DNA of 48,520 bases from NCBI GenBank assembly GCA_029060405.1, contig JAIDUB010000082.1, forward strand, positions 1-48,520, read 5' to 3'. This DNA is from Duncaniella sp. (GTDB lineage Bacteria; Bacteroidota; Bacteroidia; Bacteroidales; Muribaculaceae). The notes beneath the pieces are model-generated. The model did not search any database. It had not been told where the DNA came from and saw only the letters and a program-made list of their open reading frames with translations. The stretch's first letter is position 1. Each line of letters starts with the position of its first letter. Shown here one piece after another: positions 3,644 through 8,886 of this stretch. A program made the translations under genes and the position numbers.

Positions 3644-3805
3644 ATGGACAAGTACGTATGTGAAGTGTGTGATTGGGTATATGATCCCGAAGTAGGTGAC
3701 CCCGACAACGGTGTAGCCCCCGGCACAAAATTTGAAGATATTCCCGATGACTGGGTATGCCCCGTGTGCGGTGTCGGCAAAGACGAATTCCGCAAGGAGG
3801 ACTAA
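3644..3805 (+). CDS. rub: Rubredoxin
   Basis: A 53-residue protein, the standard rubredoxin length. Two CxxC pairs bind a single iron: Cys6/Cys9 (CEVC) and Cys39/Cys42 (CPVC). Other hallmarks are the aromatic [18 protein letters not shown] segment and DDWVCPVCG. It is a small cytoplasmic one-electron carrier, usually a partner of rubrerythrin or other oxygen-detoxifying enzymes in anaerobes. A rubrerythrin gene lies 4.5 kb away. A strong hairpin follows 25 bases after the stop, so it is likely monocistronic. Confidence 0.97.
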
Positions 3806-3829
3806 TTCAGCATCCACTAAAAAACATAG

Positions 3830-3865
3830 TCACGCGACATAGAGAAACCACTCTTTGTCGCGTGA
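3830..3865 (+). terminator. Hairpin terminator after rubredoxin
   Basis: TCACGCGACA (3830-3839) pairs with TGTCGCGTGA (3856-3865). A second stem AGAG/CTCT lies inside, around a six-base loop. TTGATTTT follows, a weak U-rich tail. Confidence 0.75.
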
Positions 3866-3887
3866 TTGATTTTCAGTAAGTTATACT

Positions 3888-3978
3888 TATTTTCGTAATT
3901 TTCCAAACATTTAAATCGCCATTTTTCGTAATTTTCCAAACATTTAAATCGCCGTTTTTCGTAATTTTCCAAACATTT
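3888..3978. repeat. 33-bp tandem repeat, about 2.8 copies
   Basis: The motif TTCGTAATTTTCCAAACATT recurs with an exact 33-base period: CGTAA begins at 3894, 3927 and 3960. The units differ mainly at their junctions, and the third is cut off after AAACATTT. The array lies between the rubredoxin terminator and the promoter of the HD-domain gene, ending about 35 bases before its -33 element. It could be a transcription-factor array or a slipped-strand minisatellite; nothing in the sequence decides. Confidence 0.9.
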
Positions 3979-4013
3979 GGCATTGTATCATCAGCCCGAT
4001 GACTGTATAATTC

Positions 4014-4044
4014 TTGTCGATTTTATAAAAATTGGCTAACTTTG
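4014..4044 (+). promoter_or_regulatory. Promoter of the HD-domain gene
   Basis: TTG at 4014-4016, a 20-base spacer, then TAACTTTG at 4037-4044, an exact match to the Bacteroidota -33/-7 layout. It predicts transcription from about 4048 and decides the start codon of the next gene. Confidence 0.7.
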
Positions 4045-4065
4045 AATATCGAAATTTTTCAGAAA

Positions 4066-4509
4066 ATGACCGACAATATGATTGATCTTTGCCTTGACAT
4101 TGCAGTCAGGGCGCATCGGGATCAGAAGGATCTCGACGGAAATCCGGTAATACTCCATCCTCTCACGGTGGGATTGAAAGGCAAGAATGCCCACGAGATA
4201 TGCGCCGGTTTTCTTCATGATGTAGTGGAGGATACCGATATCACTTTCGACGATCTACTTGCCGAGGGGGTGGCTCCTGATATCGTGGATGCGTTGCGTT
4301 TACTCACTCACGACAAAGGAGTGGAATATCTCGATTACGTGAGAAGAATAGCAGCATCGGGCAATAAGCTTGCCATTGCCGTGAAACTCAACGATCTCTC
4401 CCATAATCTCGAGCGAGGCCGACGCATGGGCTATACCCGTCTGGTAGCCAAGCACGAATCAGCCCTCAGGGAATTTGAGAAGATACTTTCACCACAATCT
4501 TGCCGGTGA
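4066..4509 (+). CDS. Small HD-domain phosphohydrolase resembling the RelA/SpoT hydrolase domain
   Basis: A 147-residue protein. An in-frame TTG at 4042 would lie inside the -7 promoter element, so I start at the ATG at 4066. Motifs match the metal-dependent (p)ppGpp hydrolase domain: His31 in the ILHP segment, FLHDVVEDT with His51/Asp52 and Glu55/Asp56, and VKLNDLSHNL at 107-115 where SpoT has KLADRLHN. There is no synthetase or TGS domain, so it resembles a stand-alone small alarmone hydrolase. Other nucleotide substrates are possible. Its 3' end overlaps the convergent oxidoreductase gene by 44 bases. Confidence 0.8.
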   Translation: MTDNMIDLCLDIAVRAHRDQKDLDGNPVILHPLTVGLKGKNAHEICAGFLHDVVEDTDITFDDLLAEGVAPDIVDALRLLTHDKGVEYLDYVRRIAASGNKLAIAVKLNDLSHNLERGRRMGYTRLVAKHESALREFEKILSPQSCR

Positions 4510-5449
4510 GATTTCTCTTCTCGGCGAGCATATGAGCCTGTGAGATTTCATCGAGGGTAAACCGCGCTGCAATCACCGGATCGATGCCGCCCTTATCAAT
4601 CAGCTGCATCATTTCCGAAATCTGCATGGGCTGAGGTGCATTGCTGTAAAATCCCGTAAGATACACACCCGAAGGAATCTCCTTGATCGGATCGAAATCC
4701 TTGAGTCCGTATACACCGCCAAGCAGTCCGGTGTGGCACACAATTCCATGCACTGCTGTCACCCGCAGCGAATCGCGGAGCGTGGAAGCACCTATCAGTT
4801 CAAGCACCTTGTCGGCTCCGCGGGGAAAGCGATCCAGAAATCGCAGGCGGAAATCATCTCCCTCCGTTATTACATCGTCGGCTCCGAGTTCTCTGAGAAG
4901 TTCAGCCTTTGCTTGGTTGCGAGTGGTAGAAATCACGGTCGCCCCCATAACTTTGGCAAGCTGCAAGGCTGCGATACCCACGGTGGATGTGCCGCCGCGT
5001 ATGAGTAAGGTATCTCCCGCTTTCAATTGGAGAGAAACTCCCAGAGAACCATAGGCCGTGTAAAATGTCTCGGGCACGGCTGCAAGTTCTTCCGCGCCAA
5101 GTTGCGAATCGACAGCAAAGACGTGGTCGGCCGGCACAAGGCAATATTCGGCATAACTGCCGTCGAAGCTGCGCCCCATTCCGCCCATCAGCGCCATTAC
5201 CCGCTGTCCTTTTCTGAATTGCGTATCAGAAGGATCGGCCACCACTCCCACACATTCTATGCCCGGGATAATCGGCTTCCTGATATATGGCTGAGCAACC
5301 TCAAACTGCCGGAGCAATACTTCCGAATGATTCAGCCCGAATGCCTCCACTTTTATCAAAACCCGCCCGGGCACGACTTTCGGCACGGGAATTTCAGTAA
5401 CTCTCATTTCTTCAGCCTTACACGGCCGAGTCAATACTACAGCTTTCAT
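4466..5449 (-). CDS. MDR-family (zinc-less) alcohol dehydrogenase / quinone oxidoreductase-like
   Basis: A 327-residue medium-chain reductase beginning MKAVVLTRP. The start overlaps the upstream maturase stop as ATGA (5446-5449); a start five codons upstream is possible but less typical. The GroES-like domain has PGIECVGVV, and the Rossmann segment reads LLIRGGTSTVGIAALQLAK. The usual structural-zinc cysteines are absent, as in NADPH:quinone or enoyl reductases. It is the last gene of the peptide/maturase operon, so it may be a tailoring oxidoreductase or an electrophile-detoxifying partner. HxlR-type regulators elsewhere (YodB, QorR) control quinone reductases, which fits the nearby regulator. 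Confidence 0.85.
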   Translation of the reverse strand: MKAVVLTRPCKAEEMRVTEIPVPKVVPGRVLIKVEAFGLNHSEVLLRQFEVAQPYIRKPIIPGIECVGVVADPSDTQFRKGQRVMALMGGMGRSFDGSYAEYCLVPADHVFAVDSQLGAEELAAVPETFYTAYGSLGVSLQLKAGDTLLIRGGTSTVGIAALQLAKVMGATVISTTRNQAKAELLRELGADDVITEGDDFRLRFLDRFPRGADKVLELIGASTLRDSLRVTAVHGIVCHTGLLGGVYGLKDFDPIKEIPSGVYLTGFYSNAPQPMQISEMMQLIDKGGIDPVIAARFTLDEISQAHMLAEKRNLTGKIVVKVSSQIP

Positions 5450-6465
5450 ATTTCTTTCCAGCATTGAGGATCAGGGGCATAGAATGAGCGGTGATAACCG
5501 TAGGCTACCGCCGGACATCCGCGACAGAAACGCAGCAGCTCACACTTGGCGCACTTCTCGAAGCGGTCATACTGCCTGTAACGCTCCATTTCTTCACCAG
5601 TCCACAATTCATATAAAGGTTTCACAAACAAGTTGCCAACCACACTCTCAAATCTCCGGCAAGCCATTACATTGCCGTCGGGTTGGATGGTAAAATGACA
5701 GTCGCCGCAATGACAACCGTCGTATATCACGTCTTCGTCACAGTCAGCCGGGATTCTGAAAAGTCCTTTTTCATGCAGGTACAGCGTCCACAGATGATCT
5801 TTAAGATTAAATACCGTGCCCGAATCCTTGTGTTGCTCGAATTTCGTCCACATCCTGTCGAGAAAATCCCGGTACTCAAGCGGAGAAATATGTGTGCTTT
5901 TTTCCTCAGAAGTAGGACAATAGCGCCCGAATGCAAATACATTGACTCCTTTTTCCACCACAAGGTCAACTATATCGGGAATCTCATCGATATTTGTACC
6001 CGATACAGTGGTCATGACCGCCACGCGGATACCGTTTCGCTTCAGCACGTCGATTTTCCCGACCGTGGTGTCAAACGATCCCGGCTTGCGTATCGCATCG
6101 TGGGTGTCGCGCATACCGTCGAGCGAAAGCTGATATTTCTCACATCCGAGCGACTTCATCATCCGGCATGTCTCATCGGTGAGATGAAACGGATTGCCGA
6201 GAATGGTAAACGGAATATTGCGCTCATGCAGCATGGCGAGTATATCGCGGAAATTGCGATGGAGAATCGGATCGCCTCCGGTGATATAGAAATACGGAAG
6301 GCGGTTCATGCGCCGGCACATATCCGCACATTGCTCTATTACCTCTCGGGCTCGCGGGAGCGGCATCTCGATAATGTGGGGATGTCCTTCCGAGAAAATA
6401 TAGCAGTGCTCGCAGCGCTGGTCACAGCTGTCGGTGATATGCCACTGAAATGCAAAATATTCCAT
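5446..6465 (-). CDS. Radical SAM/SPASM peptide maturase of an ACG-repeat peptide
   Basis: A 339-residue enzyme. The radical SAM cluster motif is CDQRCEHC with Cys14, Cys18 and Cys21. TGGDP at 62-66 stands in for the usual GGEP. A C-terminal SPASM domain has many cysteines for auxiliary 4Fe-4S clusters: Cys251, 253, 256, 269, 305, 308, 314, 317 and 335. Such enzymes install carbon-based crosslinks or other changes on ribosomal peptides. The gene lies 80 bases after a Cys-rich ACG-repeat peptide and overlaps the next oxidoreductase by four bases. I recall an annotated ACGX-type maturase family, and this architecture fits it. The chemistry it performs cannot be read from sequence. Confidence 0.88.
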   Translation of the reverse strand: MEYFAFQWHITDSCDQRCEHCYIFSEGHPHIIEMPLPRAREVIEQCADMCRRMNRLPYFYITGGDPILHRNFRDILAMLHERNIPFTILGNPFHLTDETCRMMKSLGCEKYQLSLDGMRDTHDAIRKPGSFDTTVGKIDVLKRNGIRVAVMTTVSGTNIDEIPDIVDLVVEKGVNVFAFGRYCPTSEEKSTHISPLEYRDFLDRMWTKFEQHKDSGTVFNLKDHLWTLYLHEKGLFRIPADCDEDVIYDGCHCGDCHFTIQPDGNVMACRRFESVVGNLFVKPLYELWTGEEMERYRQYDRFEKCAKCELLRFCRGCPAVAYGYHRSFYAPDPQCWKEI

Positions 6466-6486
6466 TCTTTGCTATGGTTACGTTAT

Positions 6487-6521
6487 ACGCGACTCCGACA
6501 GTAAAAGTGCCGGAGCCGCGT
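6487..6521 (-). promoter_or_regulatory. Minus-strand RNA hairpin between peptide and maturase genes
   Basis: A 14-bp stem with a 7-base loop lies between the peptide stop and the maturase start. Arms are 6487-6500 and 6508-6521. In the minus-strand RNA all 14 pairs form, two as G-U wobbles; on the plus strand the same two would be A-C mismatches, so selection for minus-strand structure is likely. No U-run follows, so it is probably a processing, stabilising or attenuating element that sets the peptide-to-enzyme ratio. Confidence 0.65.
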
Positions 6522-6545
6522 GACAATCTTGAAGTTAAAAAAGAT

Positions 6546-6725
6546 TTACTTCTCTCCTGCGCCACAGGCTGAGCCGCAGGCTGCAGGCTTGGGTTCGGGC
6601 TTATCGTCGCCGGCACCGCAGGCCGAGCCGCAGGCTGCCGAAGGTGTACCGTTTTCAGCTTCAGCGCACAGATAGGCCTGTGCCGTGTGGGGGAACAATC
6701 CGTTGGAAACACGTTTCATAGTCAT
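6546..6725 (-). CDS. Cys-rich ACG-repeat precursor peptide (putative RiPP)
   Basis: A 59-residue peptide. The first 29 residues look like a leader (MTMKRVSNGLFPHTAQAYLC...). The rest carries two identical AACGSACGAG blocks at 30-39 and 48-57, joined by an acidic/proline linker (DDKPEPKP) and ending EK. Cysteines are 20, 32, 36, 50 and 54. A second ATG at 6719 would remove two residues. It is the first gene of a three-gene operon with the radical SAM/SPASM enzyme and an oxidoreductase. I recall such peptides being called ACGX-repeat peptides. No exporter or leader peptidase is adjacent, so whether the product leaves the cell is unknown. Confidence 0.85.
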   Translation of the reverse strand: MTMKRVSNGLFPHTAQAYLCAEAENGTPSAACGSACGAGDDKPEPKPAACGSACGAGEK

Positions 6726-6761
6726 TGTGGTTTTGAGGGTTTAACATTTGGTTATCACGTG

Positions 6762-6792
6762 CAAAAATACACCTTTACATTCACTTTATCAA
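6762..6792 (-). promoter_or_regulatory. Promoter of the peptide-maturase-oxidoreductase operon
   Basis: Read on the minus strand: TTG at 6792-6790, a 20-base spacer, then TATTTTTG at 6769-6762. This is an exact fit to the Bacteroidota pattern. Expected transcription start is near 6758, giving a leader of roughly 33 bases before the first ATG. Confidence 0.75.
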
Positions 6793-6794
6793 GA

Positions 6795-6820
6795 GGTTAC
6801 TATTTATGCATATAGTAACC
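6795..6820. promoter_or_regulatory. Palindromic operator candidate
   Basis: A perfect inverted repeat, GGTTACTAT (6795-6803) and ATAGTAACC (6812-6820), with an 8-base centre. It abuts the -33 element of the peptide operon and lies 129 bases upstream of the divergent HxlR regulator. Dyad sites with GTTAC/GTAAC half-sites next to an HxlR gene suggest this is where that regulator binds. Confidence 0.7.
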
Positions 6821-6919
6821 TTTTTATCACTTTTGCTCAGTCTCAGTCTATTGGGCAGCGAAAATTTTTTGAGAAAAATTTATCTTGTGGCGCAGTGTCG
6901 GAAAGCGATTTTTTATCAT

Positions 6920-6927
6920 TAACTTTG
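6920..6927 (+). promoter_or_regulatory. -7 element of the HxlR gene
   Basis: TAACTTTG lies 21 bases before the HxlR start. I do not see a TTG at the expected 19-20 bases upstream, so only half of the promoter is supported. Confidence 0.45.
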
Positions 6928-6948
6928 CGATGAAAAGCAATGCCTTAA

Positions 6949-7323
6949 ATGAGAAAAAAAGAACTATATAACTCTATTATCGAGATATGTCCGGTGAGAA
7001 ACGTGATAGCACGTTTCGGCAACAAGTGGGCAATCCTCGTACTCCTTGTAATCAGTGAAAACACACAGGTAAGATTCAACGAACTGTCGCGCCTGATACC
7101 CGACATCTCCACCCGCGTGCTGTCATCGACACTCAAGACGCTCGAAGCCGACGGCCTGATAATGCGCACCGTATTTCCTCAGGTTCCACCGCGGGTTGAA
7201 TACTCGCTCACACCGTCGGGGCAGTCGCTCATCCCCATCATCATGCAGCTCACCGAGTGGGCGCAGAGCAATATGAAAACTATCATCGGTCACCGCCGGC
7301 AATTTGAACGTGACACCGAGTAA
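6949..7323 (+). CDS. HxlR-family winged-helix transcriptional regulator
   Basis: A 124-residue single-domain regulator. The family opening is seen as ICPVRNVIARFGNKWAILVL, with Cys14 at the position that is redox-sensing in YodB-like members. The recognition region FNELSRLIPDISTRVLSSTL and the wing VPPRVEYSLTPSG follow. It is divergent from the peptide/maturase operon with a perfect palindrome between them, and two bases upstream of a DUF5131 gene. A -7-like TAACTTTG lies at 6920-6927. I infer that it controls the peptide operon, itself or both, in response to a thiol-reactive signal. Confidence 0.92.
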   Translation: MRKKELYNSIIEICPVRNVIARFGNKWAILVLLVISENTQVRFNELSRLIPDISTRVLSSTLKTLEADGLIMRTVFPQVPPRVEYSLTPSGQSLIPIIMQLTEWAQSNMKTIIGHRRQFERDTE

Positions 7324-7325
7324 CG

Positions 7326-8195
7326 ATGCATGATATCTGGAATCCATGGCATGGCTGCACCCGCGTCAGTGAGGGATGCAGGCATTGCTATATGTATTTT
7401 CTCGACCGCAGCCGCGACCGCGACGGAAGCCGCATCTACCGTACGCAGTCGTTTGACTATCCGCTGAGCAGATCCCGCGACGGAAGCTACAGGATAAAGA
7501 GCGGGGAGCTGATACGGGTGTGCATGACCTCTGATTTCTTCCTCCCCGAAGCCGACCGCTGGCGCGCCGATGCGTGGACTATAATACGGCAACGTCCCGA
7601 CGTGAAATTTTTTCTGCTCACCAAGCGTCCCGAGCGTGTCATGCAGTCGCTTCCTGCCAACTGGGGAGACGGCTGGGAAAATGTGTGGCTCAACGTATCT
7701 TGTGAGGATCAACGCAATGCCGGCAGGCGGCTGCCATTGCTGCTCGAGTTACCTTTCCGCCACAAAGGATTCATGGCTGCACCGCTCATAGGCAAGCTGG
7801 ATGTCGACAGTTATCTTGCCACAGGGGCGATTGAGCAGGTGATTGCCGGCGGCGAGAATTACGATGGTGCCCGTCCATGCGATTTTGACTGGATAAAATC
7901 ACTGTCGGAACAATGCAAGCGCCACGACGTAAGGTTCTGCTTTATCGAGACCGGTACCGTATTCATCAAGGACGGGCGTACATACCGGATGCCCGACAAG
8001 CGTATTCAGGCAGAAATGGCATTTAAGGCCGGAGTGAATCACGAAGGAAAACCGATGAAATTCAAGTTGCACGACCCGCTCGGATTTGAAATCGACGAGA
8101 CGCAGCTCTATCGTCCACACTACCGCGACTCGTGCCTTACCTGCGGCAGCCGCCCCATATGCAACGGATGCAGCGACTGCGGCAAATGTGAATAA
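7326..8195 (+). CDS. DUF5131 family protein (radical-SAM-like, phage Gp37/Gp68 type)
   Basis: A 289-residue protein that starts two bases after the HxlR stop, so the two are co-transcribed. It opens WNPWHGCTRVSEGCRHC with Cys11, Cys18 and Cys21, the family's presumed iron-sulfur motif. LTKRPERV and IAGGENYDGARPCDFDW are also typical. The C-terminus is unusually rich in cysteine (CLTCGSRPICNGCSDCGKC). The family is uncharacterised; the Cys pattern suggests a metal cluster. Its presence beside a radical-SAM peptide system may be meaningful but is not proof of partnership. Confidence 0.88.
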   Translation: MHDIWNPWHGCTRVSEGCRHCYMYFLDRSRDRDGSRIYRTQSFDYPLSRSRDGSYRIKSGELIRVCMTSDFFLPEADRWRADAWTIIRQRPDVKFFLLTKRPERVMQSLPANWGDGWENVWLNVSCEDQRNAGRRLPLLLELPFRHKGFMAAPLIGKLDVDSYLATGAIEQVIAGGENYDGARPCDFDWIKSLSEQCKRHDVRFCFIETGTVFIKDGRTYRMPDKRIQAEMAFKAGVNHEGKPMKFKLHDPLGFEIDETQLYRPHYRDSCLTCGSRPICNGCSDCGKCE

Positions 8196-8249: not shown

Positions 8250-8792
8250 TTAATAATTCTTGGCTTCGATTTCAAAATATGCCTGAGGATGCTTGCACAC
8301 GGGGCAGATTACGGGTGCTTTCTTGCCTACATGAATGTGGCCGCACTCCTGACACTGCCATACGCGGTCATCGTCGCGCGAGAATACGATGCCTTCTTTC
8401 AGATTGCCGAGCAGCTTGAGATAGCGCTCCTCGTGGTTCTTTTCGATATCACCTACAAGTCTGAAAAGCTTGGCGATGTCAGTGTAACCTTCCTCATCGG
8501 CTACCTTGGCGAAGTCATAATACATATCGGTCCACTCGAAATGCTCGCCAGCGGCTGCGTCGACAAGATTAGCCTCCGTTCCGGGAACTTCTCCGCCGTG
8601 GAGCAGCTTGAACCATATCTTGGCATGGGCTTTCTCGTTGGATGCAGTTTCGGTAAATATCTGTGAGAACTGTACGTAGCCGTCCTCCTTTGCCTTCTTG
8701 GCATAATAGGAATATTTTACATAAGCCTGCGATTCGCCGGCAAACGCGATGCGAAGATTTTCTTCAGTCTTTGAGCCTTTAAGTTCTTTCAT
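8250..8792 (-). CDS. rbr: Rubrerythrin
   Basis: A 180-residue protein starting [13 protein letters not shown]; an upstream in-frame start 15 codons earlier lacks family similarity, so I use 8792. The ferritin-like diiron domain shows Glu20, Glu53/His56 (EKAH) and Glu117/His120 (EKNH). A C-terminal rubredoxin-like domain has Cys147/150 and Cys163/166. It reduces hydrogen peroxide using electrons from rubredoxin or NADH systems, a standard defence of obligate anaerobes. It is divergent from the metal ATPase gene. Confidence 0.97.
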
Positions 8793-8886
8793 AACATAAA
8801 TAGTTTTAACGTTTGTGATGATACAACAAGTCAACACGTATTTTTGTTCACGGAAGTTTTGCTACCGGGTTGCATTTTTTTCAACG

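Follow-up and report, generated by a model that had tools for sequence, protein, structure and literature searches.

The locus described here lies in a 48,520-nucleotide stretch of DNA from Duncaniella sp. (GenBank assembly GCA_029060405.1, contig JAIDUB010000082.1, positions 1 to 48,520 of the forward strand), referred to below as the window. It contains the gene of a small cysteine-rich peptide with ACGX repeats next to that of a radical SAM/SPASM maturase. This pair is already known by name, and the new observation is its wiring into a probable thiol-stress cassette with an HxlR-family regulator and an exchangeable reductase. A first-pass annotation had placed five genes at the locus, and all five were confirmed from the open reading frames (ORFs) and translations of the window and by family scores. 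The genes and the predicted control elements are as follows.

6546 to 6725, minus strand: ACGX-repeat precursor peptide, 59 aa (ORF; TIGR04341, 31.6 bits)
5446 to 6465, minus strand: radical SAM/SPASM maturase of the ACGX system, 339 aa (TIGR04340, 556 bits)
4466 to 5464, minus strand: MDR-superfamily oxidoreductase, quinone-reductase-like (PF08240/PF00107; PF00107 72.4 bits)
6949 to 7323, plus strand: HxlR (MarR/DUF24) regulator, 124 aa, with conserved Cys14 (PF01638, 101.6 bits)
7326 to 8195, plus strand: DUF5131 protein, Cys-rich, 289 aa, 2 nt behind hxlR (PF07505, 143.7 bits)
6796 to 6819, no strand: putative HxlR operator GTTAC-N14-GTAAC (inverted repeat; 14 exact matches among 51 loci with divergent HxlR)
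6762 to 6792, minus strand: putative peptide-operon promoter, TTG (6790-6792), 20 nt, then TATTTTTG (6762-6769) (sequence and conservation)
6920 to 6927, plus strand: candidate -7 box of hxlR, TAACTTTG (sequence only, compared with the Bacteroides consensus)

The peptide and hxlR operons, first described as facing each other, instead diverge, and the repeat between them was only in part the perfect palindrome it had been called: its 10-bp arms (6794-6803 and 6812-6821) are perfect, an 8-nt spacer separates them and the extended arms are 88% complementary. The peptide gene is located 80 nt upstream of the maturase gene. The ATGA overlap noted between the maturase and oxidoreductase frames gives a possible overlap of 4 nt, while an in-frame ATG 15 nt earlier would extend it to 19 nt; the ATGA start is likelier because the earlier ATG falls within the maturase's own QCW codons.

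The distribution of the system was examined by profile searches. Of the 393 genomes of the order, 5, with that of the window among them, encode a maturase scoring above the family cut-off; a five-sequence profile at E 1e-90 recovered it from 29 of the 397 genomes examined in the family. Scanning named genomes gave at least 583 confirmed relatives, of which the best 80 loci were kept; these were labelled mostly Bacteroidota, with some Firmicutes and one Treponema, and many are metagenome bins whose labels may be wrong. In all 113 loci (L numbers below) were examined, and 99 remained after the removal of maturases sharing the same terminal 300 residues. TIGR04340 was checked on 29 of the 99, and all 29 matched at E 1e-20.

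The window peptide contains five cysteines, four of them within ACG, and ends in ACGSACGAGDDKPEPKPAACGSACGAGEK. It scored over the TIGR04341 cut-off of 28 bits (29.8 bits in the genome search) and was the sole match to this model in its genome. A peptide with at least three CG units was found by script to adjoin the maturase in 92 of the 99 loci; the seven misses comprised four loci with fewer than 500 bases upstream, two (L056 and L078) where the ORF was beyond the limits of the script, and L036, which had none. Within the cassette peptides the core cysteine was followed by glycine in 497 of 499 cases and lay within [AS]CG in 482 of 499, the peptides containing 3-8 CG units each. A repeat number that varies around an invariant unit suggests that the Cys-Gly repeats act as independent binding or reaction sites. 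The maturase of L036 (ORF from 8088, plus strand) is divergent, scoring 485 bits and so over the ACGX cut-off, and no CG-repeat peptide, HxlR or reductase was detected near it by script and profiles.

The composition of the cassette was determined on the 63 of 99 loci that extended at least 1.5 kb upstream and at least 2.5 kb beyond the maturase, using Pfam and NCBIfam on representatives to identify the partner families. HxlR was present in 53 of the 63, counting a weak 28-bit match at L117, and MDR in 37. Nitroreductase was present in 21 (L046 and L147 weak, both also with MDR) and a PNPOx-ferredoxin protein in 13 (L039 and L169 weak). Less frequent were sirtuin (10 loci, including an 87-aa piece at L078 and a broken gene at L110), cupin (6), antibiotic-monooxygenase-like (ABM) protein (4), macrodomain (4), DUF1848 (4), DUF5131 (3) and rubrerythrin-like protein (3). 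In 57 of the 63 loci one or more of MDR, nitroreductase, PNPOx-ferredoxin and ABM was found, so that the association of peptide and maturase with a regulator and a redox enzyme, as first proposed, holds in most relatives. None of ten partner families was found at 27 other SPASM loci, all taken from the order and the genome of the window and with flanks no longer than 1.5 kb; when ACGX loci were restricted to 1.5 kb on each side, HxlR was present in 54 of 72 and MDR in 41 of 72. These controls, and the three HxlR genes found in total in the 2.56-Mb window genome, led to the rejection of chance as the reason why HxlR and reductase lie together.

The MDR protein of the window carries zinc-dehydrogenase domains by Pfam and gave its best NCBIfam score with the PIG3 quinone family (TIGR02824, 201 bits), below the cut-off of 296.8, and its top PDB sequence match was the quinone oxidoreductase 4dup (125 bits). 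By these scores it is quinone-reductase-like only and not a PIG3-type member. Nor is MDR the fixed partner that the annotation of the window implied, as a nitroreductase often takes its place. The exchange was analysed on a maximum-likelihood tree built quickly from the 99 maturases, with support from the Shimodaira-Hasegawa-like approximate likelihood ratio test (SH-aLRT) only and 28 of 96 inner branches starred. Matches above 100 bits labelled 55 loci as MDR-only and 29 as nitroreductase-only. At least 17 changes between MDR and nitroreductase were required; counting well-supported branches alone, the MDR label had to change 9 times and the nitroreductase label 11 times. HxlR, which is divergent in 51 loci, downstream in 19 and upstream in 9, changed position at least 3 times. 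These label changes are not assignable as gains or losses; their number indicates that the linkage of HxlR, reductase and peptide persists through rearrangement.

The inverted repeat of the window was rejected as significant by itself, since 0.61 occurrences of GTTAC-N14-GTAAC, allowing one mismatch, are expected per shuffled window, and it was kept as a putative operator because it is conserved across relatives. This motif was the commonest of all combinations of 5-base half-site and spacer, occurring exactly in 14 of the 51 divergent loci compared to 5 for the runner-up, while in ten shuffles of these loci the largest count for any half-site motif was 2 to 4. The exact motif itself gave 0.0 in shuffles, and with at most one mismatch it was found in 25 of the 51 loci versus 0.45 in shuffles; a few of these sites probably match by chance, among them that of L154 and that of L090, which falls within the coding end of HxlR. 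No excess was seen in the 44 loci with other arrangements of HxlR. Of 28 loci with a site, 24 divergent and 4 not, 26 had TTG 1-5 nt behind it, and TTG-N18-22-TAnnTTTG followed in 24 of the 28 versus 0.055 in shuffles. The Bacteroides promoter consensus is TTTG/TAnnTTTG. The aligned sites contained 1.73 bits per column in the arms, 0.55 in the spacers and 0.88 in the flanks; the arm figure is biased, as the arms were used for site selection, and the spacer and flank figures are free of this bias. Divergence among the loci is evident from the low spacer value. The site of L102 and L085 precedes a nitroreductase gene, which there comes before the peptide. An exact site with TTG 3 nt behind it is unique in the window genome, where two other places match with one mismatch. 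Taken together, the repeat is a putative HxlR operator abutting the predicted promoter of the peptide operon.

The closest PDB matches of the window HxlR protein were HxlR (7bze) and YybR (4a5m), the latter presumably HypR, with further matches to YodB (5hs7) and QsrR (4hqm). The conserved N-terminal cysteine already remarked on in the window, Cys14, was present in all 81 cassette HxlR proteins scoring above 100 bits. Quinones are reported to react with the equivalent cysteine of YodB (PMC8063818), and formaldehyde with that of HxlR (PMC7835342). Thiol-based control of the cassette is supported by this invariant cysteine together with the conserved inverted repeat at the peptide promoter.

The window maturase scored well over the TIGR04340 cut-off of 400 bits, and PF04055 and PF13186 were both over cut-off. 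Its CxxxCxxC motif (Cys14, 18 and 21) and the cysteines of the SPASM region (Cys251/253, 269, 305, 308, 314, 317 and 335) were invariant in 29 of 29 aligned homologues. The AlphaFold model had a mean predicted local distance difference test (pLDDT) score of 79.1 and a predicted template modelling (pTM) score of 0.83, with several loops, including residues 19-29, below 50. Foldseek placed this model closest to SuiB and SkfB, with 5why, which we take to be CteB, at rank 8. The maturase seems to be without the N-terminal leader-binding domain of SuiB and SkfB, because the protein starts at the radical SAM core. The second-best NCBIfam model was SbtM (TIGR04082), at 187.8 bits below its 350-bit cut-off and with an alignment covering only positions 198-504 of 516; the same model matched all 29 cassette maturases tested. 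SbtM produces a thiooxazole by removing four hydrogens from a Cys or Sec peptide (PMC11002830). The window maturase is not an SbtM member by these scores, and the likeness suggests thiooxazole-type cysteine oxidation as a lead. The maturase probably modifies the peptide.

The genes around the core cassettes were also considered. The 35 gene clusters present in at least 3 loci were taken, and for each non-core cluster one or two representatives were assigned to families with Pfam or NCBIfam; one cluster had no match and five were taken as antisense ORFs by position alone. DUF5131, presented in the annotation as part of the core, was rejected as a core partner: it lies directly behind HxlR in the window, L076, L116 and L155, four of 46 divergent loci, and is an optional accessory. 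It gave no PDB sequence match at E 0.01. The slot it occupies behind the divergent HxlR holds an epoxide hydrolase-type gene in L038, L039 and L169, and the slot behind HxlR holds an FMN reductase gene in L050; tautomerase, cupin, ABM and, once, glyoxalase genes occur elsewhere near the cassettes. These accessory genes are consistent with small-molecule detoxification. Typing of the recurrent clusters on representatives revealed no peptide exporter or peptidase family.

Several further neighbours were recorded. Genes for rubredoxin (3644-3805) and rubrerythrin (8250-8837) lie on either side of the window locus, which is among the three cassettes of the 63 with a rubrerythrin-like match. PanB-like (ketopantoate hydroxymethyltransferase) genes occur near the cassettes of L033, L070, L075, L077 and L080 (Pfam on L070 and L075), and in L075 the gene sits between peptide and maturase. 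The DUF1848 genes are in the ACGX operons of L090, L094, L098 and L061, their function not being known, as for DUF5131. A neurotransmitter-type symporter is encoded in 3 loci, one of the cases to be set against the lack of a recognised exporter. Upstream of the L100 cassette are genes for a methyltransferase and an ArsR-type regulator; the label 'ArsM-like' for the former is a guess.

The reading that we favour, with modest confidence, is an HxlR-switched and probably intracellular response to electrophiles or oxidants, in which a radical-SAM-modified Cys-Gly peptide acts together with an NAD(P)H reductase. HxlR would bind the inverted repeat abutting the -33 element of the peptide operon, and reaction of an electrophile or oxidant with its N-terminal cysteine would alter its grip on the DNA, through either lost repression or activation, so that peptide, maturase and reductase are produced. 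The SPASM maturase would then modify the Cys-Gly repeats, SbtM suggesting thiooxazole-type oxidation of the cysteines. The peptide may remain intracellular and serve as a redox carrier or as a scavenger with several thiol or heterocycle sites, and the exchangeable reductase, MDR here and nitroreductase elsewhere, may clear the same reactive compounds or recycle the peptide. The parts of this picture that sequence comparison establishes are the set of genes and its recurrence, the exchange of the reductase, the conservation of operator and promoter as a unit, and the Cys-Gly repeats.

A number of observations weigh against this interpretation. HxlR is missing from 10 of the 63 loci (L036, L063, L065, L103, L105, L106, L107, L112, L115 and L172, although in L106 and L112 an HxlR gene is present outside the distance limit), and one further locus, L117, has only the weak match. 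At the chosen cut-offs all four redox enzymes are missing from six (L036, L063, L103, L106, L111 and L172), with an MDR gene located farther off in L106 and L111. The operator motif is carried by only some of the 51 divergent loci, and in close relatives the sites are partly shared by descent. A single operator common to all HxlR groups was looked for and not found, none standing out in the QYPTC, FPxC and Firm groups. The N-terminal cysteine is general to HxlR proteins, so that its presence alone is no proof of sensing, and the window MDR lies under the trusted cut-off of the PIG3 quinone family. An ArsP-type permease gene near three cassettes (L153, L171 and L092) could indicate metalloids, and a cluster upstream of 4 cassettes gave a weak ABC-transport accessory match (27 bits, cut-off 34.7).

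The reductase could instead be a tailoring enzyme that acts on a group installed in the peptide by the maturase, with HxlR merely controlling the pathway of a ribosomally synthesised and post-translationally modified peptide (RiPP). MDR- and nitroreductase-fold tailoring enzymes are established in RiPP pathways, as lanthipeptide dehydroalanine reductases and azoline dehydrogenases. Here the MDR or nitroreductase gene is often directly behind that of the maturase, and a common peptide substrate would explain the 17 or more exchanges equally well. We nevertheless consider this explanation unlikely, as the optional cupin, ABM, epoxide hydrolase and tautomerase genes resemble those of small-molecule enzymes, and the relatives YodB and HxlR answer electrophiles or oxidants (PMC8063818 and PMC7835342).

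It is improbable that the product is a metal- or metalloid-binding RiPP, with Cu(I) or As(III) chelated by its Cys-Gly repeats in thiooxazole or thiol form and the redox enzymes playing a secondary part. The usual partner is HxlR and not a metal regulator, ars-type genes are found in few of the 99 loci, and the maturase is a radical SAM enzyme and not an MNIO. Chelation is suggested by the resemblance of the CG repeats to the EGKCG repeats of copper-binding thiooxazole RiPPs (PMC12538549), by the standing of SbtM as second-best model, and by the ArsP-type permease of three loci and the methyltransferase and ArsR-type genes of L100. A stress-induced RiPP secreted for antimicrobial or signalling purposes would agree with the small precursor, the SPASM maturase and a fold nearest the RiPP maturases SuiB and SkfB. 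This appears highly improbable given the near-invariant, undiversified Cys-Gly core and the lack of a recognised exporter or peptidase among the typed clusters; an immunity gene was likewise not recognised, though no search was aimed at one.

In some relatives the ACGX operon also contains a sirtuin gene: L065, L066, L071, L087, L090, L094, L098, L110, L112 and L117, accompanied by a macrodomain gene in six of the ten (L065, L066, L087, L090, L098 and L117). The gene of L110 is broken into several reading-frame pieces around 3704-4613. The L087 sirtuin, the only one for which the SirTM class was checked against the PDB, matched SirTM 5a3a with 210 bits, and the macrodomain of the same locus matched 8rsi and 5kiv. 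As in the aligned SirTM, the L087 sirtuin has a glutamine where ordinary sirtuins carry the key histidine, a substitution whose meaning in SirTM was taken from PMC11490716. No GcvH-L was seen among those neighbouring ORFs of the sirtuin-bearing loci that were scanned. Profile searching of the window's first 14 kb gave no sirtuin ORF, and no sirtuin match was obtained in 395 genomes of the phylum, including that of the window, at E 1e-25, a result of little weight given that the query belonged to a different lineage and that no positive control responded. Of 250 genomes in the class of Sporomusa, 47 have a sirtuin match, and among the best 30 of these loci an ACGX maturase lay within 1.5 kb in three. 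Two of the three were the query's own locus and one already in the ACGX set (L173 and L174), leaving L184 as the only new one among 28 others. Most such sirtuins partner elsewhere, which weighs against the peptide as their target. According to PMC11490716, it is not known what SirTM/Zn-Macro pairs outside the GcvH-L operon act on. A more elaborate proposal is that the ACGX peptide is an encoded thiol or heterocycle redox agent, a counterpart of the low-molecular-weight thiols, switched by HxlR, served by swappable NAD(P)H reductases and, where the sirtuin and Zn-Macro-type macrodomain are present, the missing target to which the former would add ADP-ribose and from which the latter would remove it; this we hold to be distinctly improbable.

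Neither a function nor a trigger is established for many of the radical SAM peptide systems that bioinformatics has uncovered. For the orphan ACGX system the regulator, the probable operator and the exchangeable redox enzyme provide a specific hypothesis on the inducer and the compounds involved. If this is correct, the cassette would give gut anaerobes and some Firmicutes an electrophile or redox defence based on a peptide, and that peptide would be a candidate target for sirtuin/macrodomain pairs.

When the cassette is compared with known systems, the closest is the ACGX system of NCBIfam (TIGR04340 and TIGR04341), with which the window pair shares adjacency and repeat; that such peptides had been named before was stated in the first-pass annotation. 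The entry rows type the maturase as 'hypoth_equivalog' and assign no function, and HxlR, reductase and operator do not appear in those rows. In line with the impression that the combination was undescribed, no publication on the ACGX pair or its link to HxlR was found among the matches listed in a search that subscription papers were mostly beyond. SbtM is the closest characterised NCBIfam model and acts on a Cys or Sec peptide, but the window maturase scores well under its cut-off and aligns in part. SirTM/Zn-Macro operons resemble the ACGX operons of the ten relatives in their SirTM-like sirtuin and, in six, macrodomain, and differ from these in the GcvH-L of SirTM/GcvH-L operons, which was not seen among the scanned neighbours, while the window itself is without a detected sirtuin.

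RiPPs of the bufferin and bulbicupramide type also contain repeated Cys-Gly units, and we know of no link between these and an HxlR-reductase pair. They are made by MNIO/DUF2063 proteins and not by radical SAM enzymes, and carry EGKCG in place of the ACGS/ACGA of the cassettes. In PMC12538549, bulbicupramide is described as having no nearby protease, and a possible intracellular role is discussed.

The regulons of YodB, CatR, QsrR and HypR are likewise governed by an HxlR-family regulator with an N-terminal cysteine. Beyond that of YodB these regulons also have reductase targets, and to our knowledge none includes a ribosomal peptide or a radical SAM maturase. In the YodB regulon the reductase target azoR1 is a parallel to the cassette reductase, and the preferred YodB site is TACT[7]AGTA (both PMC8063818). 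The window repeat shares TACT and AGTA with this site at a wider spacing, so that the two are similar and not identical.

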